This document shows, piece after piece, positions 295-28,191 of a DNA stretch of 44,058 bases. Positions within the stretch are counted from its first letter, which is position 1. Each line of letters begins with the position of its first letter. A program made the translations under genes and the position numbers. The notes under the pieces are model-generated. The model searched no databases. It was not told the DNA's origin and saw nothing but the letters and a program-made list of their open reading frames with translations. Source of the stretch: an uncultured Coriobacteriia bacterium (lineage in GTDB: Bacteria; Actinomycetota; Coriobacteriia; Anaerosomatales; Anaerosomataceae). The stretch spans positions 1 to 44,058 of the forward strand of contig CAKMKD010000062.1 in assembly GCA_927439865.1 (NCBI GenBank). Reading direction: 5' to 3'.

Positions 295-1653
295 ATGGAA
301 AAGTTCTTCAAATTCAAAGAGCGCGGTACGAACGTGAGGACCGAGATCCTCGCTGGCGTCGTCACCTTCATGACGATGGCCTACATCATTTTTGTTAACC
401 CGGGCATTCTGTCCGCGGCATTCGGCGAGGCCGGAGCCGACTGGATTCCCGCGCTTGCCACGGCGACCACGCTCGGTGCAGCGCTGATGTGCATCTGCAT
501 GGGCATCTTCGCGAACCGGCCGTTCGCACTCGCTTCAGGCATGGGCTTGAACGCGGTCGTGGCATTCGGCATCATCATCGGGGCACAGGTGCCCTGGCAG
601 GTCGGCATGTCTGTCATCTTCGTCGAGGGACTCGTCATCCTACTACTCGTCATGACAGGACTCCGCGAAGCTGTCATGAACGCGATTCCGCTGGACCTCA
701 AGCGGGCAATCGGCGTCGGCATCGGCCTGTTTATCACGTTCATCGGCCTCGTCGACGGCAAGGTCGTCGTCGGTGACCCGAACACCCTCGTCAAGCTCGG
801 CGACTTCACACAGCCCGCCGTGTGGGTAACCCTGATCGGCCTCATCGCGATCATCGCGTTCATGGCGCTCAAGGTGAAGGGCGACATCCTCTGGGGCATC
901 GTCGTCGCAACCATCGCTGCGCTCATCCTCGGCGTCACGAAGCTCCCGGAGGGTCAGCTCTTCGCGATGCCGGTGTTCGACACGTTCTTTGCGCCGTTCC
1001 AGACGCCGGAGGGTACCAACTCCATCGCGCTGCTCCAGGTGTTCACGCCTACGCTGCTGCTCTTCGTCTTCGCGGTCATGCTCACTGACTTCTTCGACAC
1101 GATGGGCACCGTGATTTCCGTCGGCGAGCAGGCCGGATTCGTGGACAAGGACGGAAAGATCCCCGGAGTTCGCAACATCCTTGCGGTCGACTCGGCCGCT
1201 GCGGCTGTCGGCGGACTCTTCGGTGCGAGCTCGATCACGACCTACATCGAGTCGGCTGCCGGAGTGGCCGAAGGCGGTCGCACCGGACTCACCCCGATCG
1301 TGACGGGCATCCTGTTCGCGCTGTGTGCATTCTTCACACCCATCATCGCCATGGTCGGCGGGGCATTGCCGATCACCGCTGGCGCTCTCATAGTCGTCGG
1401 TTTCCTCATGATGGCGAGCGTTCGCGACATCCCCTGGACTGACTTTGAGGAAGCGTTCCCTGCCTTCCTGACGATCGTCGGCATTCCGCTGACGTACAAC
1501 ATCAGCTACGGCATCGGCCTTGGCTTCATCAGCTACGTCGTCATCAAGGTCTTCCATGGCAAGGCGAAGGACGTCCACTGGCTCCTCTGGGTCATCAGCG
1601 CCGCGTTCGTCATCAGCTTCATTCTGCCCGCCATCCAGAAGCTTGTCGGGTAG
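295..1653 (+). CDS. NCS2 family permease, AzgA-like (adenine/hypoxanthine/guanine)
   Basis: MEKFFKFKERGTNVRTEILAGVVTFMTMAYIIFVNPGILS is a classic AzgA-type N-terminus. ORF track starts at 226; ATG 295 is the better start. Confidence 0.92.
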   Translation: MEKFFKFKERGTNVRTEILAGVVTFMTMAYIIFVNPGILSAAFGEAGADWIPALATATTLGAALMCICMGIFANRPFALASGMGLNAVVAFGIIIGAQVPWQVGMSVIFVEGLVILLLVMTGLREAVMNAIPLDLKRAIGVGIGLFITFIGLVDGKVVVGDPNTLVKLGDFTQPAVWVTLIGLIAIIAFMALKVKGDILWGIVVATIAALILGVTKLPEGQLFAMPVFDTFFAPFQTPEGTNSIALLQVFTPTLLLFVFAVMLTDFFDTMGTVISVGEQAGFVDKDGKIPGVRNILAVDSAAAAVGGLFGASSITTYIESAAGVAEGGRTGLTPIVTGILFALCAFFTPIIAMVGGALPITAGALIVVGFLMMASVRDIPWTDFEEAFPAFLTIVGIPLTYNISYGIGLGFISYVVIKVFHGKAKDVHWLLWVISAAFVISFILPAIQKLVG

Positions 1654-1663
1654 AGGGGGACAC

Positions 1664-3013
1664 ATGGCAGTACGACGCGTCATCCAGACTGACGAGAAGC
1701 TACCGCTGCTGCAGGCGTTTCCGCTCGCCGCTCAGCACCTCATGGCGATGTTCGGTGCCACGGTTCTCGTGCCGCTTCTCACCGGACTCGATCCGGCGGT
1801 CGGCCTGATGACCTCGGGCTTCGGCACGCTGCTCTACCTGGTAATCACCAAAGGCAAGATCCCGAGCTACCTCGGTTCCTCGTTCGCTTTCATAGCACCA
1901 CTCGCCGCAGTTGTCGGTGGTGTGACTGCAGGGGCTGCGAACAAGCCTGAGATGATTCCGTACGCCCTCGGCGGCATCGTCGTCGCCGGGCTCATGTATG
2001 TCGTCGTCGCCGGCCTCATCAAGCTGTTCGGCACGGGCTGGCTCTACAAGGCTTTGCCGCCTGCGCTCGTAGGTGCCGTGGTCATCATTATCGGACTCGG
2101 CCTTGCTGGCGTTGCCATCAAGATGTCGCTTTTCGAGTTCGCTAACCCTGCGAACGGGCTGCGCTGGGACTACCTCGCAGTTGCGACGATCACGCTCGCG
2201 GCAGCTATCGCGTTCTCGAGCTACTTCAAGGGCTTCGCAGCGACGATCCCGATTCTTCTGGGCATCATCGTCGGCTACGCGGCCGCTATTCCGTTCGGGC
2301 TTGTAGACTTTGCGAAGGTTGCCCAGGCGGACTGGGTTGGCCTCCCGCAGCTGACGATCGCCAAGTTCGAGCCTTCGGCAATTCTGCTCATCGCGCCGGT
2401 CGCCTTCGTCGTGATCATCGAGCACATAGGTCACCTGCTGGTGATCAACGAGATCACAGGCAAGGACTTCAACCCGCTGTTGCCGCAGTCGCTGATCGGT
2501 GACGGGCTCGCAACCGCGTTCTCCGGGCTTGTGGGCGGTACGCCGTCGACGACGTACGCCGAGAACATCGGCGTCATGGCCGTGACCAAGATCTACTCGG
2601 TGCAGCTCTTCTGGATCGCTGGCGCACTCGCGGCTATCATCGGCGGGTTTGTGCCGAAGGTCGGCGCGGTCATCAGCTCGATACCGGGTCCGGTTATGGG
2701 CGGCGTCTCGATTCTGCTTTTCGGGCTGATCGCAAGCTCCGGCCTCCGCATGTTGGTGGACAGCGGAATCGATTACAGCCACAGCCGCAATCTGATTCTC
2801 TCGAGCGTGGTCCTTGTCATCGGCATTGGCATGGAGGTCGGCGGAATCGCGATTCCCCTTGGCCGCTACACCGTGCCGGGTATGGCCCTGGCCACCCTCA
2901 TAGGTGTCCTGCTGAATCTCATCCTGCCGCGCGAGTCCGAGGGGCTCATGGTGGACTCACCGGACTTCAGCGGCGAGCTTCAGGCAGAAGCGGCCGCGAA
3001 AGAGGCTTCCTAG
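1664..3013 (+). CDS. Uracil/xanthine permease (NCS2, UraA/PbuX-like)
   Basis: MAVRRVIQTDEKLPLLQAFPLAAQHLMAMFGATVLVPLLTGLDP... GGTPSTTYAENIGVMAVTKIYS; RBS gaggggga before ATG 1664. Confidence 0.92.
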   Translation: MAVRRVIQTDEKLPLLQAFPLAAQHLMAMFGATVLVPLLTGLDPAVGLMTSGFGTLLYLVITKGKIPSYLGSSFAFIAPLAAVVGGVTAGAANKPEMIPYALGGIVVAGLMYVVVAGLIKLFGTGWLYKALPPALVGAVVIIIGLGLAGVAIKMSLFEFANPANGLRWDYLAVATITLAAAIAFSSYFKGFAATIPILLGIIVGYAAAIPFGLVDFAKVAQADWVGLPQLTIAKFEPSAILLIAPVAFVVIIEHIGHLLVINEITGKDFNPLLPQSLIGDGLATAFSGLVGGTPSTTYAENIGVMAVTKIYSVQLFWIAGALAAIIGGFVPKVGAVISSIPGPVMGGVSILLFGLIASSGLRMLVDSGIDYSHSRNLILSSVVLVIGIGMEVGGIAIPLGRYTVPGMALATLIGVLLNLILPRESEGLMVDSPDFSGELQAEAAAKEAS

Positions 3014-3061
3014 CACCACGGAGTGACCGTGCGCACGCGCGCACGCGCTCGATATACGACG

Positions 3062-3093
3062 GCCCCGGGCTGCGCAGACGCGCGGTCCGGGGC
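3062..3093 (+). terminator. Rho-independent-like terminator after the permease pair
   Basis: GCCCCGG...CCGGGGC inverted repeat followed by tgcttcgtt. Confidence 0.65.
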
Positions 3094-3188
3094 TGCTTCG
3101 TTACTCGCAGGAGGTCGGTACTGACCGCGTCATTGAGGGAGATACCGGGAAGCGTGGCCGAGGGATGCCACTCCCAAGCACGCTAGCT

Positions 3189-3216
3189 ACGCCGGATAAT
3201 ACCTCTTATGTTAAGT
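3189..3216 (+). other. dif: Candidate chromosomal dif (XerC/XerD) site
   Basis: ACGCCGGATAA-TACCTC-TTATGTTAAGT: 11+6+11 layout. XerD arm matches E. coli dif arm TTATGTTAAAT at 10/11; XerC arm ends in ATAA (6/11). Sits at the coding-strand switch. Confidence 0.6.
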
Positions 3217-3293: not shown

Positions 3294-3611
3294 CTAGACC
3301 TCCGCGGACTGCGGGAAGTACGCGTCCTCGAACTCCGTGTTGGTCATCTCGGCGAGATCGTCCTCAGCCGACTCCAGCCACGTATAGGCCTCTTCCTGGG
3401 AGCCAAACCGCGCGAGCACGGTTGCGACGTCGTCGTTATCAAACTCGACGGCCTCCACCTGGTAGATCTCCTGTTCGGCCAGCTGCGCCGAGGGCGGCGT
3501 GCGCCACAGGATGTCTTCTCGCCACTCAAGATCAGGGGAATCGCCTTCATCCACGCGCGTCACGCGCAGCCGATAGAACTCCCCCGCACTTCCAATGACC
3601 TTGCGGCCCAT
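3294..3611 (-). CDS. Hypothetical acidic protein (105 aa)
   Basis: ORF with plausible RBS upstream; no domain recognised. Confidence 0.65.
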   Translation of the reverse strand: MGRKVIGSAGEFYRLRVTRVDEGDSPDLEWREDILWRTPPSAQLAEQEIYQVEAVEFDNDDVATVLARFGSQEEAYTWLESAEDDLAEMTNTEFEDAYFPQSAEV

Positions 3612-3626
3612 CCGGACCTCCTACGT

Positions 3627-4073
3627 CTACTTCACTAGTTCAGAGTAGTTCCCACCTGCAGCAACCCAACCCTCATCACCGGTATTATCACGCACTCGGT
3701 ACCAGCCGTTTGCCGTCTCGAGAAGCTCGAGGGAGCTGCCGCTCTTGAGCTTCTTGATGACGTCGGCACTCGTCATCGGCTTCTTGCGGAGGTTGAGACC
3801 CTCGGCAAGCACTGTGACTGTCGGCTTTGTCCCGACGGGCTTCGTCGTCGCCTCTGCACTCGCATCCGTTCCAGTAGGCTCCACGGACTGCGTTGCGGGC
3901 GTTGAACCCGGCAGCGCCCCGGGCGATTTCGGGGTACTCCTGTAATCGCCATACATGCCCCAGGCGAGCCATGCCAGGATAAGAAGCAGCGCCCACGCAC
4001 CAACGATCCGTGCGATTCGCATCGTAGCAATCTGCCCTCGTGATGCCGGCATGTCGTTCCCTCCTTTGGGCAA
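3627..4073 (-). CDS. Membrane-anchored bacterial SH3 domain protein
   Basis: N-terminal TM segment then LAEGLNLRKKPMTSADVIKKLKSGSSLELLETANGWYRVRDNTGDEGWVAAG (SH3b pattern). Confidence 0.8.
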   Translation of the reverse strand: MPKGGNDMPASRGQIATMRIARIVGAWALLLILAWLAWGMYGDYRSTPKSPGALPGSTPATQSVEPTGTDASAEATTKPVGTKPTVTVLAEGLNLRKKPMTSADVIKKLKSGSSLELLETANGWYRVRDNTGDEGWVAAGGNYSELVK

Positions 4074-9006: not shown

Positions 9007-9522
9007 CTAATCGACGTGAATGAGCGACACGATCCTCGCATCGCCCAGCTTCTCGCGGCCGCCGAGGAAGTCGAGCTCGATGAGAAACGCGAATCCGGCC
9101 GTTCTGGCGCCGGTCGCCGCAACAAGCGCGTTCTTGGCAGCAGCAGTGCCGCCAGTCGCCAGCACATCATCGACGATCAGCACTACATCGTCGGCGACGA
9201 GCGCATCGGCATGCATCTCAAGCGTATCGGTGCCGTACTCGAGGTCGTACTCGGCCTTCGTCGTCGTCCACGGCAGCTTGCCAGGCTTTCGCGCCGGAAC
9301 GAATCCGGCCCCCAGCTTGTAGGCAAGCGCCCCGCCGAAGATGAAGCCGCGAGCCTCGGCGCCGAGCACCTTTGTGATGCCTGCGTCGGCGAAAGCCGCA
9401 GCGATCGTGTCGATAGCACCGCGGAATCCCTCCGGGCTGGCCAGGAGCGGGGTGATGTCTTTGAAGATGATCCCGTCTTTCGGGAAGTCCGGGATGTCAC
9501 GGATGTACGACGAAAGATCCAC
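9007..9522 (-). CDS. apt: Adenine phosphoribosyltransferase
   Basis: VDLSSYIRDIPDFPKDGIIFKDITPLL...VLIVDDVLATGGTAAA PRPP loop; RBS aaggaggag before GTG 9522. Confidence 0.95.
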   Translation of the reverse strand: MDLSSYIRDIPDFPKDGIIFKDITPLLASPEGFRGAIDTIAAAFADAGITKVLGAEARGFIFGGALAYKLGAGFVPARKPGKLPWTTTKAEYDLEYGTDTLEMHADALVADDVVLIVDDVLATGGTAAAKNALVAATGARTAGFAFLIELDFLGGREKLGDARIVSLIHVD

Positions 9523-9586
9523 GAGTGTCTCCTCCTTGATGCGGTCAGAACACGCGTTCCAGAGTAGCGCGGAAGCGCACCGATAA

Positions 9587-10573
9587 CTAGAGCATGGCTT
9601 CCAGCGCGGAGAGCTGAGTGCGGGTGCCGAGGACCACGAGTTCGTCTCCGGCTGTGAAAACTGTCTCAGATGGCGGATTCGGGTTGAGTGTGCCGGCCGC
9701 CGAACGTACCGCCAGGATGTACGCTCCGGTCCGATCGCGAACCCGCGCGTCGCGAATCGTCGTCCCAAGCAGGCTCGAGGCATCGCCAACCCTGACCGAG
9801 TCGAGGCGAAACTCGATCTCGTCGCCGTGCATGACGACATCCAGATAATCTGCAACCACCGGGTTCATGACCATGTCCGCCATACGTCGTCCGCCGATGA
9901 CATTCGGAGTCAGCACTCTGTCGGCGCCCGAGCGCAGGATCTTCGATTCCGAGATCACGGATGAGGACCGCGCAACGATGTAGATCGACGGGTTCAGTGA
10001 CCTCGCTGTCAGCGCGACGAACAGGTTGTCGGCGTCTGTGTCCACGGCGGTCACAAGCCCCTTGGCCCGCTCGATGCCTGCATCCCGGAGCACCGACTCG
10101 TCGGTGGCATCACCATGTACGAACAGCCAGCCTTGCTCTTCGGCGGACTGCCGACACTCGTCGCAGCTGTCGATGACCACGAACGGCACGCCCTCCTCGG
10201 CGAATGAACTGGCGACGACAGAGCCGACCCGTCCGACGCCGACAACGATGTGGTGACCCGACAGCCCGCTGATGCGCTTGTGCATGCGGCGTCCCTCCAG
10301 GATTGTTCGCAGTTGACCTTCCACCATGAACTCGATGATTGCACCGAGTGAGTATGCAATGCCTCCCACGCCCGCGAAGATGAGAGCGATCGTAAACACC
10401 TTGCCGGCATCCGAGAGCGGCGTCACCTCGCGATACCCTACCGTGGCAATCGTGATGACCGTCATGTACAGGGAGTCGAGTAATCCCCATCCCTCAATCA
10501 CCTGGTAGCCGATTGCACCCACCAACATGACGCCTAAGAGTATGCACATCGCGATCGCGACGCGTCGGGGCAT
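9587..10573 (-). CDS. Potassium channel with C-terminal TrkA-N/TrkA-C (RCK) domains
   Basis: Pore-like TIATVGYREVTPLS, then HHIVVGVGRVGSVVASSF Rossmann motif and TrkA-C. Confidence 0.88.
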   Translation of the reverse strand: MPRRVAIAMCILLGVMLVGAIGYQVIEGWGLLDSLYMTVITIATVGYREVTPLSDAGKVFTIALIFAGVGGIAYSLGAIIEFMVEGQLRTILEGRRMHKRISGLSGHHIVVGVGRVGSVVASSFAEEGVPFVVIDSCDECRQSAEEQGWLFVHGDATDESVLRDAGIERAKGLVTAVDTDADNLFVALTARSLNPSIYIVARSSSVISESKILRSGADRVLTPNVIGGRRMADMVMNPVVADYLDVVMHGDEIEFRLDSVRVGDASSLLGTTIRDARVRDRTGAYILAVRSAAGTLNPNPPSETVFTAGDELVVLGTRTQLSALEAML

Positions 10574-13467: not shown

Positions 13468-14250
13468 TTACCTATACCCTCCCGTGAGCACAGCAACGTC
13501 CAGCGCGGCCCGCCTCGCGGAGTCGATCTCGGCATCGGTCAGCGATCCTGGCGCAAGGCCAATGCCGAGACAATTCTCGAATGCTTCGCAGACCGCACGC
13601 GTGATCACCTCCACGGATGGTGCACCGCCTGGCGCTGCCTCAAGCGTCGCAGTCTCTACCCCGAGACGGGCACTGCCGTCCTCGCCGAGCATGAAGACCG
13701 CTGACTCGGCAGCTGTGTCGCGCGACCGCACGAACGAGCCGTGCTGGAGTAGTACATCGTGGTCCCAGACTTGTGCGCTCCCGGAGAGTTTTGCCGCCCC
13801 GAGCGAGAGATCGGCGTGCGTCGCGTGCAGGTAGCATGCGCCCGCGGCCTTCTCGCCCCTGGGACGCTCGGTCAGCCCCGCAGGCACACCAAGTCGCCCG
13901 TACGCCTCGGCAAGCGCACCACAGAGGACCCGATAGCTCGCACTAACGCCGCGGGGAACGCCGTCGGCCACTGATGCCACGACCGAGTAGGTGACTTCGT
14001 CGTCGTGGAGCACACCGCGTCCTCCGGTGGGCCGCCGAACCACGTCGAAGCCGTGTTCCCGACAGAATCGCATATCCACGTCGCTCACATCCTGGAATCG
14101 ACCCAGTGTGACCGTCGGGACCCGCCAGCTGTACAAGCGCAACGTGGGAGGGACCGTGTCCTCTCCCCGTGCGATAAGAACGGCCCGGTCGACGGCCATG
14201 TTCCATGCGCCGTCTCCCGGGCCGTCCACTATGAGTCGCCATGTCTGCAC
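13468..14250 (-). CDS. Octanoyltransferase LipM / lipoate-protein ligase A family
   Basis: RRPTGGRGVLHDDEVTYSVV...ACYLHATHADLSLGAAKLSGSAQVWDHDVLLQHGSF; the Cys favours LipM type. Confidence 0.85.
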   Translation of the reverse strand: MQTWRLIVDGPGDGAWNMAVDRAVLIARGEDTVPPTLRLYSWRVPTVTLGRFQDVSDVDMRFCREHGFDVVRRPTGGRGVLHDDEVTYSVVASVADGVPRGVSASYRVLCGALAEAYGRLGVPAGLTERPRGEKAAGACYLHATHADLSLGAAKLSGSAQVWDHDVLLQHGSFVRSRDTAAESAVFMLGEDGSARLGVETATLEAAPGGAPSVEVITRAVCEAFENCLGIGLAPGSLTDAEIDSARRAALDVAVLTGGYR

Positions 14251-14268
14251 GCGGGGTCGGCCTCCGGG

Positions 14269-15747
14269 CTACTCCGCGGGCTTCCACGCGAGATCGGGCT
14301 GCTTGACCGCCGCGGCCTCATCGAGTCTGCGAACCGGCGTCGTGTACGGCGCGGCGTGGAGCATCTCGGGGTCAGCTTCGACCTCGGCCGCAATCGCGAG
14401 CATCGCGTCGACGAAGCCATCGAGCACCTCGAGACTCTCGGTCTCTGTCGGCTCGATCATGATCGCCTCGTGCACGATGAGCGGGAAGTACACCGTTGGG
14501 GGGTGCACGCCATGATCGAGCAGCCGCTTCGCCATGTCGAGCGTACGAACGCCATGCTGCTTGCGCTGCCGCTCGCCCGAGAGCACAAACTCGTGCATGC
14601 AGGTCCGGTCATACGCAAGGTCATACGTGCCGCGCAGGCGCTCCTTGAGGTAGTTGGCCGAGAGAACCGCCTGCTCAGCAACGTCTCTGATGCCTTCGGC
14701 ACCGAGAGCGCAAATATACGTATACGCCCTTACCAGCACACCGAAGTTGCCAAGGAACGACTTGACGCGTCCGATCGAACGGGATGGCGTGACCGGCATG
14801 AAGCTGCCGTCGCTGTCCCTGGCGATAACCGGACCGGGCAGAAACTCAGCGAGCGCCTCCGTGACACACACAGGACCCGCGCCGGGGCCGCCGCCGCCAT
14901 GCGGCGTCGCAAAGGTCTTGTGCAGGTTGATGTGCATGGCGTCGAAGCCCATGTCACCGGGTCGCGCACGACCGAGAATCGCGTTCAGGTTCGCGCCGTC
15001 GCAGAACGCGAGCGCGCCGACCTCGTGCACCAGACGGTTTATCTCCGAGATGTTCTCCTCGAAGAGTCCCAGTGTGTTCGGGTTCGTGAGCATGATAGCG
15101 GCAACATCGGTGTCTAGCGCTGCCTTAAGCGCTTCAAGGTCGACTCCCCCACGCTCGTTACTCGGCACCTGGGTGACCGAGTACCCGCACATCGCAACGG
15201 TCGCGGGATTCGTGCCGTGCGCAGAGTCCGGAATGATGACCCGTGCGCGCACATCGCCATTCGCAACGTGATACGCGCGAATCGCCATGAGCGCGGTGAG
15301 TTCACCGTGTGCTCCCGCCGCCGGCTGAAGTGAGACGGCCGGAAGCCCCGAAATCTCGCCCAGCGCTTCCTGCAGGCCCCACATGAGTCCCAGGGCGCCC
15401 TGAACCGTCTCGGCGGGCTGATACGGGTGCGCGCCCGCAAAGCCCGGCAGGCGACATGCCCACTCGTCGATACGAGGGTTGTACTTCATCGTGCACGAGC
15501 CGAGCGGGTAGAATCCGCTGTCAACGCCGAAGTTGACGCTCGCCAGATGCTCGTAGTGGCGGGCGATCTCCACCTCGGTCACATGAGGAAGGTGCGGTTG
15601 CTGCGCTCGTGCGAACCCTCCGAGAACGCTCGAAATATCCACGTCCGGGATATCAAGCGCGGGCGACTCGATACAGCGCGACTCAGGTGAACCGGTTTCG
15701 AAGATCAGGGGGCGGAGCACCGCCTCGCGCTTCATATGCTCGCTCAC
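14269..15747 (-). CDS. gcvPB: Glycine dehydrogenase (decarboxylating) subunit 2
   Basis: ITVIIPDSAHGTNPATV-type region (RVIIPDSAHGTNPATVAMCGYSV); NLHKTFATPHGGGGPGAGPVCV PLP region. Confidence 0.95.
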   Translation of the reverse strand: MSEHMKREAVLRPLIFETGSPESRCIESPALDIPDVDISSVLGGFARAQQPHLPHVTEVEIARHYEHLASVNFGVDSGFYPLGSCTMKYNPRIDEWACRLPGFAGAHPYQPAETVQGALGLMWGLQEALGEISGLPAVSLQPAAGAHGELTALMAIRAYHVANGDVRARVIIPDSAHGTNPATVAMCGYSVTQVPSNERGGVDLEALKAALDTDVAAIMLTNPNTLGLFEENISEINRLVHEVGALAFCDGANLNAILGRARPGDMGFDAMHINLHKTFATPHGGGGPGAGPVCVTEALAEFLPGPVIARDSDGSFMPVTPSRSIGRVKSFLGNFGVLVRAYTYICALGAEGIRDVAEQAVLSANYLKERLRGTYDLAYDRTCMHEFVLSGERQRKQHGVRTLDMAKRLLDHGVHPPTVYFPLIVHEAIMIEPTETESLEVLDGFVDAMLAIAAEVEADPEMLHAAPYTTPVRRLDEAAAVKQPDLAWKPAE

Positions 15748-17072
15748 AGCGACACCACCTCCCCGACAAAACGGTCCATCTGGGCCCGTGTACGCTTCTC
15801 GGTGACGGCGAACAGGACGAGCCCGGCGTAGTCGCTGGAGAAGCGAGAGAGGTCGAGGCCTGCCAGGAATCCTCGCTCGAGCATCGCATGCTGCATTGCG
15901 GCAACATCGCCGTCGTAGCGAAGCGCGAACTCGTTCGCGAACGGAGCAGCATTCGCCGCCGAGAAGCGCCCGGTTGCGATGAGCGCATCGCGGAGGTAGT
16001 GCGCCCTGGCGATGCAGCTGCGGCCGATGCCTGCAAGACCGCTCATGCCGACCGACGCAAGATACACGCCCGCAGTGAGCGCATTGAGCGCCTGGTTCGA
16101 GCAGATGTTCGACGTGGCCTTCTCGCGACGGATGTGCTGCTCGCGAGTCTGCATGGTGAGGACGAAGCCAGGGCGACCGTCAACGTCGCTCGTGCGACCA
16201 ACGACTCGGCCGGGCAGCTGCCTGATGAACTGCTGGCGACACGCGAAGAACCCGAACCCGGGACCGCCGAACGACATGGCATTGCCGAGGGGTTGCCCCT
16301 CTCCTACCACGATGTCCGCGCCAAGAACTCCCGGTGCCTCCATCACGCCAAGCAGAATGGGATTCGCAGCGACCACGAACAGCGCGCCGGCTGCATGGGC
16401 GATATCGCCAATCACCGAGAGGTCCTCCACACAGCCGAGAAACGAGGGTGATGCAACGAGCACCGCAGCGGCATCTGTCACCAGCTCGGCGAGCGCGTCA
16501 ACATCGGTGCGCCCACCAACTGCAGGGCACGTCACGACATCGATCATGCCCGACTCGGCGTACGTGGCGAGCACCTCGAGCCACTCGGGATGGGCAGCTG
16601 CGCTGACCACAACGCGGTGGCGCTTTGTGAAGCGGGCAGCCATGAGTGCGGCCTCGACGAACGCCGTTGCGCCGTCGTACATCGACGCGTTGGACACGTC
16701 CATGCCGGTCAGCGAGCAGATCATCGACTGATACTCGTAGATGGCCTGCAGTGTGCCCTGGCTTATCTCGGGCTGATACGGGGTGTACGCCGTAAAGAAC
16801 GCCGGCTTGCTCACGACGGCGTCCACAATCGCAGGAATGTAGTGGTCGTAGCATCCTGCGCCGAGGAACGATACCAGTCCGGACGTGTTCGAGGATGCCA
16901 AAGCCTCGATCTGGGCTGCCAGATCGATCTCACTCATGCCGTCCGGCAGATCGAGCGGACGCGTGAGTCGAACGTCCGCAGGTATGACCTCGAAGAGTTC
17001 GTCGACGGTGCGCACACCGACGGCGTGCAGCATGTGCTCACGCTGCTCGCAGGAGACCGGAATGAAGCGCAT
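15744..17072 (-). CDS. gcvPA: Glycine dehydrogenase (decarboxylating) subunit 1
   Basis: SFLGAGCYDHYIPAIVDAVVSKPAFFTAYTPYQPEISQGTLQAIYEYQSMICSLTGMDVSNASMYDGATA. Start trimmed to ATG 17072. Confidence 0.95.
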   Translation of the reverse strand: MRFIPVSCEQREHMLHAVGVRTVDELFEVIPADVRLTRPLDLPDGMSEIDLAAQIEALASSNTSGLVSFLGAGCYDHYIPAIVDAVVSKPAFFTAYTPYQPEISQGTLQAIYEYQSMICSLTGMDVSNASMYDGATAFVEAALMAARFTKRHRVVVSAAAHPEWLEVLATYAESGMIDVVTCPAVGGRTDVDALAELVTDAAAVLVASPSFLGCVEDLSVIGDIAHAAGALFVVAANPILLGVMEAPGVLGADIVVGEGQPLGNAMSFGGPGFGFFACRQQFIRQLPGRVVGRTSDVDGRPGFVLTMQTREQHIRREKATSNICSNQALNALTAGVYLASVGMSGLAGIGRSCIARAHYLRDALIATGRFSAANAAPFANEFALRYDGDVAAMQHAMLERGFLAGLDLSRFSSDYAGLVLFAVTEKRTRAQMDRFVGEVVSL

Positions 17073-17076
17073 CTCC

Positions 17077-17460
17077 CTACGCTTCCTCGGCGACGAACGC
17101 CTCGTACTCATCGGCGGACATGAGTGCGTCGAGTTCGGAGGCGTCACCCATCTTGACCTTGACCATCCAGCCGTCGCCGTACGGATCCTCGTTCACGGTC
17201 TCGGGAGCGTCGCCCAGGGCTTCGTTCACCTCGACGATCTCGCCTGAGATCGGCGAGAACAGCTCGGACACCGACTTCACCGACTCAATCTCGCCGAAGC
17301 TCTCGCCTGCGACGAGCTCGTCGCCCACTGCAGGCAGGTCGACATACACGACCTCGCCGAGCTGATCCTGCGCGAAATCGCTGATGCCGAGAACGGCGAC
17401 TTCGCCGTCGACCTTGACCCACTCGTGCTCTTTGTCATACCTGAGGTCCTTGGGATTCAT
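17077..17460 (-). CDS. gcvH: Glycine cleavage system H protein
   Basis: MNPKDLRYDKEHEWVKVDG...GEIESVKSVSELFSPISGEIVEVNE lipoyl-lysine motif. Confidence 0.96.
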   Translation of the reverse strand: MNPKDLRYDKEHEWVKVDGEVAVLGISDFAQDQLGEVVYVDLPAVGDELVAGESFGEIESVKSVSELFSPISGEIVEVNEALGDAPETVNEDPYGDGWMVKVKMGDASELDALMSADEYEAFVAEEA

Positions 17461-17489
17461 AGCGGGTAGCGCTCCTTTCGAGTGTCTGA

Positions 17490-18596
17490 CTACGACGAAA
17501 GTGCCGAGAGCGATGTCTCTTTGACGAACGGTGGTCGGACGACTGTGGCCGCGACGTGCTTGCGACGAATCGCGACTACGAGCTCGGTGCCGGGCGCGGA
17601 GAGTTCCGCAGGCACGTATGCCGTCGCCACACCATGACCGAGCGTCGGTGAGTACGTGCCGCTTGCAACCTTACCCACCTCGGTGCCGTCATGCAACACA
17701 GGATACTCGTGCCGCGGAACGCCTTCAGACACAGTGAGGCCTACGAGTTTGCGGGAAGGACCCGCCTCCCTGACACGGGCGATGGCCTCCGCGCCGATGA
17801 ATCCGGTCTTCGCCTTCGGCACAACCCAGCCAAGCCCCGCCGAGATTGGATCGACGCCGCGGTCCATGTCGCTGCCGTAGAGCGGATAGCCCATCTCGAG
17901 CCGGAGCGTGTCACGCGCGCCAAGCCCGCACGGCGTCACCTCGGCAAAGGAGAGCAGCAGCCGCCAGACAGCGACAGCATGGTCGGCATGGCAGACGATC
18001 TCTACCCCGTCCTCCCCGGTATAGCCGGTGCGTGCCAGCAGCACGGGGATCTCGCCGAGACGGGCCTCGCCGATGTGGAAGCGCGCTGGTACTTCGAAGT
18101 CCTCATCGGCAAGGCTCCCGATGACCTCGAGTGCCTTGGGTCCCTGAACGGCGATCAGACCGGTGCGGTCCGATTCGTCGACCGCCTCAATGGCTTCGGG
18201 CAGGTGCGCTGTGATCCAATCCCAATCGGTCTGGCGGTTCGCCGCGTTCGCAATCACCAGATACTCGAGGTCCCCTGTGTGATAGACGATGAGATCGTCG
18301 ATGATCCCGCCATCCTCATCGCACATGACTGTATAGAGCGCACTGCCGATCTCGGCGATCTTATTGAGGTCGTTGGTGACGATGGCGTTCAGCGCCTCAA
18401 ACACGCCGAAGCCGAAGAACCGAAACTCGGCCATGTGGCACACGTCGAAGATGCCCACCGAGGAGCGAACCGCCTTGTGCTCTTCGATGATGCCCACGTA
18501 CTGCACAGGCATCTCCCAGCCCGCGAACGGCACGACGCGCGCGTTGAGTGAAAGATGCTCGTGATAGAGCGGCGTTCTCAGCAGTTCCTCGGTCAT
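17490..18596 (-). CDS. gcvT: Aminomethyltransferase (T protein)
   Basis: MTEELLRTPLYHEHLSLNARVVPFAGWEMPVQY...; ATG 18596 preferred. Confidence 0.95.
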   Translation of the reverse strand: MTEELLRTPLYHEHLSLNARVVPFAGWEMPVQYVGIIEEHKAVRSSVGIFDVCHMAEFRFFGFGVFEALNAIVTNDLNKIAEIGSALYTVMCDEDGGIIDDLIVYHTGDLEYLVIANAANRQTDWDWITAHLPEAIEAVDESDRTGLIAVQGPKALEVIGSLADEDFEVPARFHIGEARLGEIPVLLARTGYTGEDGVEIVCHADHAVAVWRLLLSFAEVTPCGLGARDTLRLEMGYPLYGSDMDRGVDPISAGLGWVVPKAKTGFIGAEAIARVREAGPSRKLVGLTVSEGVPRHEYPVLHDGTEVGKVASGTYSPTLGHGVATAYVPAELSAPGTELVVAIRRKHVAATVVRPPFVKETSLSALSS

Positions 18597-18616
18597 GGTC
18601 TTCCCTTCTACGCCGG

Positions 18617-19867
18617 TCACTGAACCGTGACCGGCTCGGCCTGCAGCTGCCCGCCGAATACCGTGCGCCAGAAGCGCGTTATCCCTATGGTGAAACGCTC
18701 CCATCGATCAGGCGCGTCGATAGCGGTTGCCGCGACGATCGGCACCTGCGCGATGAGCCGTCCGCCTTGCTCCACAGTGAGGGTACCCAACCGCTGCCCC
18801 TTGACGACGGGCGCCTGCACATCGAGCGTCACGCTCGAGCGTGACGTGACCGGACCGAGGACATCGAAGACCGCCGTGGCGGTGGTCTCGGCGACAACAG
18901 CAGGCACCGTTCGGTCGAGGAAGTCAGTCACTGCAACGAGCGCCACGGTGGTTTCGGCAGACGCCACCTGCTGGACTGCGTAGTGCTCGAATCCCCAATC
19001 GAGCAGCCGCTTCGCCTGAACGAACCGGGCGTTCTCGTTCTTCGTACCGAGGATGACAGCAAAGAGCTCGATATCCCCGCGCTCTGCTGAAGCGACAAGA
19101 CAGTAGCCTGCGTCATTGGTCCAGCCGGTCTTCACCCCGGTCGCGCCATCGTAGGAGCCTATCAACAGGTTGGTCGCATCGAAGCGCTTGGTCGTGCCGC
19201 CCGCGGAAACGCTGACTGTTTCGCTGCCTACCATCTCGCGAAAGGCCGGCTTCCCCATCGCATACCGCGCCATCGTGGCGAGATCGGCTGCCGATGTGCG
19301 GTGACCCGTTTCGTCCAGGCCGTGCGCATTGGTGAACTGCGTGTTCGGTAGATTCAGACTCTCCGCCTTGTCGTTCATGAGGCGAACGAACCCGTCTACG
19401 GAGCCACCGATGTGTATCGCAAGCGCAGTGGCAGCGTCATTGCCCGAGTGAATGAGCGTCGCCTCAAGCAGCTGGCGCACAGAGAGGTTCTGACCAGCGC
19501 GAAGCCCGACGTCCGCCTCCCCCACCGTGGCGGCTTCACGAGGCACCGTGACCTTCTCGGAGAGGTCCGCAACGGCCTCGAGTACAACGATAGCGGTCAT
19601 GATCTTGGTGGTGCTGGCCATTGCCCGCCGATCATCAGCATTGCGCGACCACAGTACCTGCCCGTCCGCTGTCTCAAGCACTGCCGAGGGGGTGACGAGG
19701 TCCGGAGCAACCGCCTTGAGCGCACCAGACGAGGAGACCGCCACGTCGCCAACAACGTCGGTACCGCGGATGTCACCGACGGCCGACGTAGCAAGCACGA
19801 ACGTCAGCGCAAGTAGCACCACAACGCCTGTGAACCGGCGGCGCAAGACAGGGGTGCTCATGAGCAT
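18617..19867 (-). CDS. D-alanyl-D-alanine carboxypeptidase (DacA/DacF-like)
   Basis: SxxK (ASTTKIMTA), SGN (HSGNDAAT), KTG (VKTGWTNDAG) motifs; signal peptide. Confidence 0.92.
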   Translation of the reverse strand: MLMSTPVLRRRFTGVVVLLALTFVLATSAVGDIRGTDVVGDVAVSSSGALKAVAPDLVTPSAVLETADGQVLWSRNADDRRAMASTTKIMTAIVVLEAVADLSEKVTVPREAATVGEADVGLRAGQNLSVRQLLEATLIHSGNDAATALAIHIGGSVDGFVRLMNDKAESLNLPNTQFTNAHGLDETGHRTSAADLATMARYAMGKPAFREMVGSETVSVSAGGTTKRFDATNLLIGSYDGATGVKTGWTNDAGYCLVASAERGDIELFAVILGTKNENARFVQAKRLLDWGFEHYAVQQVASAETTVALVAVTDFLDRTVPAVVAETTATAVFDVLGPVTSRSSVTLDVQAPVVKGQRLGTLTVEQGGRLIAQVPIVAATAIDAPDRWERFTIGITRFWRTVFGGQLQAEPVTVQ

Positions 19868-25057: not shown

Positions 25058-27565
25058 CTACTCCTCCACGATGGCGGCCTCTACCAGCGCCACATATCGG
25101 TCCGCTCTCGCATCGGCATCCTCGGCTGACTCGCCCTCCGTGAACACCTCCACGATCGCATCGCTTGAGTGTGGGAGAACGAGTGCCCAGCCGCTCTCCT
25201 CGACGATGCGCACGCCTTCGGTCATCTCCACTTCCCGATGCTGGCCGAACTCGGCCATCTGGCGCATGACGGCGCCTTTGCGATCGAACGGACAATGCAC
25301 CTGCCGGCGTCGCAGGTGGAACGGCGGCAGAGCATCGACAACCTGGTCGAGGGTCATATCCAACTGGTCCAGCATGCGAAGCGTCATGCCGAGACTCATC
25401 ACGGCGTCGTAGGAGGCCAGGAACGACGGGAAGACGAATCCGCCGGTCTGCGAGCCAGCAAATCCAACCCCCGGGTGAAGCGCAGCAGTCGAGAGTGAGC
25501 GCCGCGACGTGCCCACCCGTGAGACGCCATGCCCTCCTGCCCCGGCGATCTCCTCGATCACCCGGGACGCCGTCAGGGGAACCGCGGCCAGGCGATTGCT
25601 CGTATCCGTGCGGCTCCACATGTAGAGCATCGCGTGCAGAGCGGTATCAGCATCGAGCACTCGCCCGCTGCCGGTCACGAGCGAGATCCGCTCGGCGGTG
25701 GCATCCATCGAAACCCCGAAGTCGGCCTGGAAGACGTCCATCGAGCGCGCGACTTGCGCGAGCACGACCTCGCGTTCCGGACCGTCGGGAGCTGTTCGCT
25801 CGGAGTCCACGAACGGACGCAACGCGATCATCTCGACATCCCAGTTTCCGGCGACTTGCGGAACCACGAACGATGCCGGGCTCATGCCCATATCCACGAC
25901 GATGGTCTGTCTGCGTGATGTGAGCGCCGCTGCACCGTCGAGCGCGTCCATGAGTCCGGCAGTGTAGTACTCAAGCGCGCGCGGCGGGTAGATGATCTCG
26001 CCTATCTCGCCGAAGAAAGCACGACGGAACTCCTGCCGGAAGTAGAGTCGCTCCACCTTCTTCTCGATCCAGGGCGCAAGGTCGATGCCGGCCTTGTCAT
26101 AGAAGTGAAGCTCGAGGGTTTGGGGGTCCTTCGAGGACGCACACACATGCACACCGCCCTCGCACCGCGTATCGCGGGTGGTGAACCGAGTAATGCCTGG
26201 CGAGGCAACGCGCAGATCGCGAACGTGGTTGCCAGTGGAGTTCAGTCCCGCAACGATCGCCCGCTTGACCATCCGCGCGCCCTTGCTTGAGTCCCTGCTT
26301 ACCACCACGTGCGATTTGCTCGGCAGAATGCTGCCGAACGCCTGCGCAACCTTGAGAGAAAGGTCCGGCGTGATGTCGATGTTGACGAGGCCGGCGATGC
26401 CGTCGGTCCCGAACAGCGACCGGAGGCCTTTGCTCTCCCAGATAAGCGACGAGGCAACGACCGCGCCGGCCTCGATGCGCTTGTACGGGTACACCTGCAC
26501 GTCGTTGCCAACAATCGCGCCGTGACCCACGACCGTCGAATCGCCGATTGCTGAACCGGGCTCGATTCGCGCACGCGCGCGGATATCCACGCCGCGACAG
26601 ACAACCGCCCCACGGACCTCGGAGCCCCCACCAACGAACGAATCGGACCAGATGATCGAGTGCTCGAGCACGGTGTCTTGTCCGATGAGGCAGTTGTCGC
26701 CAACGACTGTGTAGTCATCGAGACGAGCACCGGCACGTATACGCGTGTTCGCACCGATGACGACCTTGTTGCCGATGACGGCGCCTGGGTCGATGTCTGC
26801 ACCCTTCCCTACCCAGACGCTGTTGCGCGCCCGCGCACCGGGCACGTAGATCATCGCCTTGCCGTCAAGGATGTCGCGGTGGGCCTCGACGTACGAATCG
26901 AGACTGCCCACATCGCACCAGTATCCTTCCGCGACGAACCCGTAGAGGTCATGGCCGGCTGCCATGAGCGCCGGGAAGAGTTCCGATGAGAAGTCGTACG
27001 GCGTGGCTTCGGGGATGAAATCGAAAATGAGCGGGTCCAGGACGTAGATGCCGGTGTTGATAGTGTCCGAGAACACCTGACCCCAGGTCGGCTTCTCAAG
27101 AAAGCGCTGGATCTTGCCGCTATCGTCGGTGATGACCACGCCGAAATCGAGCGGATCCGGAACGCGCGTCAGGGCGATGGTGACCGGTCCGTCGTGCGAC
27201 TCATGAAACGCGATAACCTCCGTCAGGTCGATGTCCGTGAGGGCGTCGCCCGAGATCACGATGAACGTGCCGTCCTTGAGCGCATCCTCGGCGTTCTTGA
27301 CGGAACCCGCGGTGCCGAGCGGGGACTCCTCGACGGCGTACGTGATCGCAGTCCCCCACTCGTCGCCATCGCCGAAGTAGTCCTCGATGACCTGCGGCAT
27401 GAAGGCTAGCGTGGCGACCACATCGGTGATGCCGTGGTGCTTCACCAGACCGAGGATATGCTCCATCACGGGCTGATTCACGATAGGAACCATCGGCTTT
27501 GGTCGCGTACTCGTGAGCGGACGGAGACGCGTTCCTTCGCCGCCCGCCATGATGACTGCCTTCAC
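25058..27565 (-). CDS. Mannose-1-phosphate guanylyltransferase with hexapeptide repeats and phosphomannomutase-like C-terminal domain
   Basis: [38 protein letters not shown]; LbH repeats; [12 protein letters not shown] domain with altered active-site loops. GTG 27565 preferred. Confidence 0.9.
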
Positions 27566-27597
27566 CGGCACTACCTTTCCCTCGCAGCGCGCGGCGC

Positions 27598-28191
27598 CTA
27601 GCTGGTACTGGCCGCTGCTTTGGCTGTGTCGAGCGCCCGCTTGGCGCTGAATGAGTACTGCACCGCTGTGATGAACGAAAGCACCATGCCGAGGTACACG
27701 ATCCACGTGCCGACGAGCGAGCCGTTAACGGACGGCCAGCCGGCGATGAGCGATGAGAACCCGGTGAGGAGCACCGCCGTGGTGATCTTCCCGATGAAGA
27801 TAACCGGGAGAATGACGCGGTACTTCTCGAGCACATACGAACCGTAGAGCAGGTAGACGTCCCGCAGAACCAACACGACGGGAATCCACAGTGGCAACTC
27901 ACCGATGATGTACAGGCCAATCACGCCAGACGCAAGCAGGAGACGATCCACGAGCGGATCGATGATCTTGCCTACGTGCGTCACGGTGTGTGTACGTCGT
28001 GCGATCTGGCCGTCGATCCAGTCGGTTGATGCCGCGAAAGCGTAGAGCGCGAACGCTGCTAGCCTCGCCCTCTCGGAATCCCGAAGGAGCATTGCAAAGA
28101 AGAACGGCACCAGCAGCAGCCGCAGAATAGTCACGAGGTTCGCTACGGAGTAAATCCCGGAGTGAACCTCTTCAGTCGCCTCGTCTACCAC
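27598..28191 (-). CDS. CDP-alcohol phosphatidyltransferase (PgsA-like)
   Basis: [18 protein letters not shown]...[32 protein letters not shown] (CDP-OH-P transferase motif, slightly divergent). Confidence 0.9.

Follow-up and report, generated by a model that had tools for sequence, protein, structure and literature searches.

Is the intergenic 28-mer at positions 3189-3216 of a 44,058-nucleotide stretch of DNA from an uncultured Coriobacteriia bacterium (Anaerosomatales, Anaerosomataceae; assembly GCA_927439865.1, contig CAKMKD010000062.1, analysed at its full length and hereafter called the window) the site at which chromosome dimers are resolved, dif, and is it also the place where replication terminates? 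The 28-mer is very probably the chromosomal dif of this bacterium, a reading to which we give a probability of roughly 95%, because it is unique and conserved in place, is accompanied by genes for XerC, XerD and an FtsK gamma domain, and lies, in relatives, where polarities converge. The site itself is of a known kind, one more well-supported dif in an established family. The noteworthy part is the separation, in relatives, between dif and the switch in strand composition, an offset that bears on whether replication terminates at dif and on whether gene orientation in the terminus follows fork direction or chromosome segregation.

The 28-mer reads ACGCCGGATAA-TACCTC-TTATGTTAAGT and, as the original prediction had proposed from the letters of the window, has an 11-6-11 layout, with an XerC-side arm (3189-3199, + strand), a 6-bp central region (3200-3205, +) and an XerD-side arm (3206-3216, +). 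The predicted likeness to Escherichia coli dif also holds, the last 11 bases agreeing with its XerD arm at 10 of 11 positions, and the inverted inner arm bases ATAA and TTAT are present on either side of the centre. The XerC arm has diverged (6/11 to E. coli dif), its inner half being conserved and its outer half variable, and the centre reads TACATC, TGTATC or TATATC in most relatives. The site sits in a 280-bp gap, between the end of a + strand permease gene at 3013 and the stop end of a minus-strand gene at 3294, which bears out the noncoding gap of about 280 bp that had been described around it. Copies were counted with the core pattern GATAAN6TTATGTTAAGT at up to three mismatches. One match was obtained in the window, where shuffled sequences give 0.01, and one in the bacterium's own assembly (1.93 Mb in 213 contigs, 86.5% complete); the site is thus single-copy in this genome even when three mismatches are allowed. 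The closed genome of a relative, G006, also has a single match. Short degenerate motifs do arise by chance, and a fortuitous 28-mer in a spacer would be an alternative reading of this match, yet the low expectation in the window, together with a conservation that is linked to position across the order, refutes it for practical purposes.

This conservation was followed in 61 genomes, i.e., the bacterium's own and 60 relatives. At up to one mismatch the pattern is found in 28 of them, as a single copy in 27 and in two copies in one, while the reversed pattern, used as a control, has no match in the 61 genomes. When the spacers of the genus and family are aligned, the 28-mer forms a conserved block in a sequence that is otherwise unalignable, except at a hairpin close to the permease. 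The neighbours are constant across about 16 families: nearly everywhere in the relatives, a gene for an NCS2 (uracil/xanthine-type) permease (1520-3013, +, in the window) lies on the left flank, genes for a 105-amino-acid conserved protein (3294-3611, minus), an SH3-domain protein (3627-4073, minus) and a third protein lie on the right, and all point to dif. The 105-amino-acid protein, which has no match in Pfam or NCBIfam, was detected with a profile in 60 of 69 genomes of the order, nearly always as a single copy. In 55 of these 60 genomes a dif-like match (up to three mismatches) adjoins its gene in the same relative orientation, at a distance of 13-287 bp in 54 genomes and of 1,014 bp in one. 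Matches of this quality that are not linked to the gene number 12, against 11 for the reversed pattern, so that most of them can be attributed to chance. Between two genera with an orthologue identity of only about 66%, the surroundings of dif are collinear, with all reciprocal best pairs within 60 kb (51/51 on the left, 38/38 on the right) in the same orientation. Because the whole region is collinear, the link between the 105-amino-acid gene and dif may be positional only.

The same observations bear on another origin for the site. Integrative elements that use the host XerCD carry dif-like sites, and the 28-mer, lying as it does in a noncoding gap, could be the attachment site of such an element instead of the chromosomal dif. 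However, its single copy in the own assembly and its single match in the closed relative, its constant neighbours and the collinearity between genera all argue against an inserted element; no element genes were recognised beside it, and no second copy of the site was found in the own assembly. We therefore regard this origin as very improbable.

The recombinases expected of a chromosomal dif are encoded in the same genome. Two full-length Xer proteins are present: an XerD-like protein (C119), which scores best with XerD and whose gene adjoins the alanine dehydrogenase (Ald) gene, and an XerC-like protein (C171), which scores best with XerC and whose gene adjoins trmFO. Both fall slightly below the equivalog cut-offs and above the cut-off of NF001399 (PRK00283), the tyrosine-recombinase model for the general XerC/D subfamily. 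An FtsK gamma domain is found in the own genome (94.5 bits) and in 6/6 genomes overall, and five relatives (G001-G004 and G006) have ftsK 25-28 kb to the left of dif, oriented towards the site. In G006 and G004, xerC and xerD lie 60-90 kb to the left and 114-138 kb to the right of dif.

Gene orientation changes at the site, as had been claimed. In the window, the two genes on its left are on the + strand and those on its right, between 3294 and 19954, are without exception on the minus strand, once a + open reading frame called at 9016-9567 is dropped as spurious, the overlapping minus frame at 9007-9855 carrying a phosphoribosyltransferase domain. Over longer distances, orientation was followed with a simple codon-usage gene caller in the closed G006 (1.84 Mb, same family) and in large contigs of the congeners G004 and G003. 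In these three genomes, the + strand carries 73-100% of the genes left of dif, mostly more than 90%, over distances of up to 280 kb, and at most 29%, mostly less than 15%, of those on the right. The best point for the gene-strand switch in G006 is 692.3 kb (bootstrap 683.5-692.3), with dif at 693.1 kb. The octamers resembling FtsK orienting polar sequences (KOPS) behave similarly: GGGNAGGG and GGNAGGGG switch at 689.5 kb in G006, with a wide interval for GGGNAGGG (595-689 kb), and GAGAAGGG switches at 638 kb. Within 60 kb of dif, the summed orientation counts of GGGNAGGG and GGNAGGGG for the left and right sides, respectively, are 8:0 and 0:14 (G006), 7:3 and 3:12 (G004), and 12:3 and 0:9 (G003). 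In the relatives, genes and KOPS-like octamers thus converge on dif over more than 100 kb per side; octamer orientation was one of the checks for which the original prediction had called. A set of 124 octamers picked for their replichore-following polarity gave an intermediate result (515:354 left of dif) and was set aside in favour of the KOPS-like octamers chosen a priori, because such a choice invites regression to the mean. How dif is oriented within a replichore was also dropped as a criterion, the two replichores being equivalent.

Several points weigh against the identification of the 28-mer as dif. Because the own assembly is fragmented and provides only 3 kb to the left of the site, the evidence on polarity and skew comes from relatives. 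The KOPS-like octamers are modelled on the consensus of E. coli, and their polarity in part follows that of the genes. In five of the 60 genomes that have the 105-amino-acid gene, no linked site is present at up to three mismatches, the site being perhaps diverged or absent there. Finally, the cumulative GC-skew maximum of G006 falls at 574 kb, against 693 kb for dif. Taken as a whole, the dif reading nevertheless passes on copy number, conservation in place, recombinases, the FtsK gamma domain and the convergence of genes and octamers.

One can reasonably presume that XerC and XerD bind the two 11-bp arms and that strand exchange takes place across the 6-bp centre. FtsK, loaded by polar octamers pointing to dif from both sides, would bring two dif copies together at the septum and activate XerD, and dimeric chromosomes resulting from an odd number of crossovers would thereby be converted to monomers. 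Binding by XerC and XerD, recombination and FtsK dependence at the window site are all inferred from its sequence and setting. The E. coli XerCD/dif/FtsK system is similar in its 11-6-11 layout, its closely matching XerD arm, its single copy, its two Xer recombinases, its FtsK with a gamma domain and the convergence of KOPS on the site. It differs in that the XerC arm of the window site has diverged, in that gene orientation around dif is much more extreme in the relatives studied here, and in that strand composition switches at dif in E. coli and about 120-140 kb away in these relatives. The dif sites that Kono et al. (2011; PMC3025954) predicted in 641 organisms are likewise unique conserved 28-mers near the terminus; xerD was found near the origin in that study, whereas in G006 and G004 neither xer gene nor ftsK is more than about 140 kb from dif.

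The second question, whether replication terminates at dif, was addressed through strand composition in one closed relative (G006), large contigs of two congeners and a shorter one of a third. In G006, the cumulative GC-skew minimum (1,467 kb) coincides with dnaA (1,465 kb), as expected for the origin, and dif, 58% of the way round from dnaA, is in the terminus region. The inversion of GC skew that had been expected at the site is however not found there: it lies about 119 kb (raw skew) to 137 kb (fourfold-degenerate sites) away, the raw skew being near zero from about 560 to 690 kb and then -0.08 directly right of dif. Nearly every gene of this interval points right, which allows the effect of gene direction to be told from that of replication direction at fourfold-degenerate positions. 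The coding-strand skew at these sites is +0.030 in leading genes, -0.114 in lagging genes and -0.133 in the + genes of the interval; gene by gene, the interval is distinct from leading genes (Mann-Whitney, 3e-29) but not from lagging ones (0.10). The direction-corrected switch is placed at 556 kb (bootstrap 556-576), i.e., about 0.5-1.6% of the chromosome from the point opposite dnaA (546 kb) and about 6.4-7.5% from dif.

The congeners agree. In G004 the fourfold switch is displaced from dif by 124 kb to the left (bootstrap -246 to -124 kb). Lagging-like values are also seen left of dif in G003 (-0.151) and G001 (-0.128), against -0.039 and +0.005, respectively, on their right flanks. The two left genes of the window (-0.209 and -0.009, compared with -0.020 in the minus-strand genes right of dif) and the own ftsK gene (-0.286) agree with an offset but are too little to prove it. 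The offsets are not created by the fourfold method, since in an E. coli K-12 control covering 200 kb around dif the switch falls at dif (+ genes 0.212 left and 0.026 right; minus genes 0.017 left and 0.178 right). The skew mismatch does not refute dif, but shows it to be distinct in position from the replication switch. The genes converge on dif, yet in the relatives those of the left interval are lagging-like in composition. The loci available from other families (±1.5 kb) were set aside as a gauge of an order-wide offset because of their shortness; in them, 15 of 21 comparisons between the permease and right-hand genes go in the expected direction. In one family (f5, short loci only) the pattern is the reverse of that of the own family, with a leading-like permease and lagging-like right-hand genes, and the offset may there be on the other side of dif.

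Lagging-like silent sites left of dif could also reflect the codon choice of core genes, and conserved core genes, including ftsK, do lie there. However, conserved genes right of dif are leading-like (+0.009 vs -0.13), and the shift extends to noncoding DNA, as the G006 spacers between co-directional + genes have a skew of -0.030 in the interval, against +0.055 and +0.065 in leading and about -0.03 to -0.06 in lagging regions. Moreover, the switch lies near the point opposite dnaA, and codon choice appears an unlikely source of the signal. A replication footprint would imply that the main zone of fork meeting is 120-140 kb to the left of dif, close to the point opposite dnaA, as the strand-specific composition of the relatives suggests. 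In this scheme, dif would have no strong fork trap and forks would collide in the vicinity of the point opposite the origin; the right-hand fork would usually copy dif and then run through roughly 100 genes head-on. The G006 replichores measure 772 kb on the right and 1,066 kb on the left, and since the right one is shorter, its fork would normally pass dif. The simplest account, and our best reading, is a normal dif system in which dimers would be resolved at dif while forks often meet elsewhere.

Alternatively, the replichores may have changed in length in an ancestor, in which case silent sites would have re-equilibrated fast while gene orientation and dif persisted as slow or unselected relics. 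Fourfold sites saturate quickly, and since gene order around dif is nearly constant between genera, gene orientation may simply change slowly. On the other side, the interval is no less uniform in gene orientation than other regions (74-100% per 20 kb, mostly more than 90%), and the offset has lasted, as it is shared by the two genera despite their diverged orthologues. We consider such relics a serious candidate, with a likelihood approaching one half. More tentatively, dif, as the point of convergence of genes and FtsK-orienting sequences, may in this lineage be held apart from the zone of fork meeting in a stable way, by 6-7% of the chromosome, a proposal somewhat short of an even chance. 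If this were true, the near-total gene orientation of the terminus would be maintained relative to dif and chromosome segregation and not by fork co-direction, because about 100 genes per genome meet the fork head-on. With landmarks more than 100 kb apart, the lineage is suited to telling fork meeting and dif apart.

The offset is unusual against the open-licence literature, although earlier reports in subscription journals are possible. In Proteobacteria and Firmicutes, the distance from dif to the GC-skew shift was 0-1.39% of the genome (1 sigma), with outliers up to 3% (Kono et al. 2011; PMC3025954), unlike the 6.4-7.5% of G006. It has been argued that fork collision or traps, and not dif, determine termination (Kono et al. 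2012; PMC3317982), and the collision of forks near the point opposite the origin is what is envisaged here. In the 65 bacteria of that study, however, the skew shift was nearer dif (0.39%) than the opposite point (2.61%), the reverse of G006. In Gemmatimonadota, almost all genes in a conserved region around the terminus point to it, as here, but the gene-strand switch coincides with the skew peak (Tomasch et al. 2024; PMC11237797), whereas the two are separated in the present relatives.

Other features of the window are more local. The terminator said to precede the site is represented by a very strong conserved hairpin 3' of the permease gene (3056-3101, +; -38.4 kcal/mol, z -5.6), which probably marks the end of its transcription, but the T-run of a terminator is lacking. 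The small hairpin GGTCggtactGACC described in the gap folds no better than chance (z -0.16) and is not conserved. Further right, the minus strand carries a glycine-cleavage gene set (13468-18704: an aminomethyltransferase, two P-protein subunits and a lipoyl ligase-like protein) and a gene for an 882-amino-acid fusion (25058-27706) of nucleotidyltransferase, hexapeptide and phosphomannomutase-type parts.
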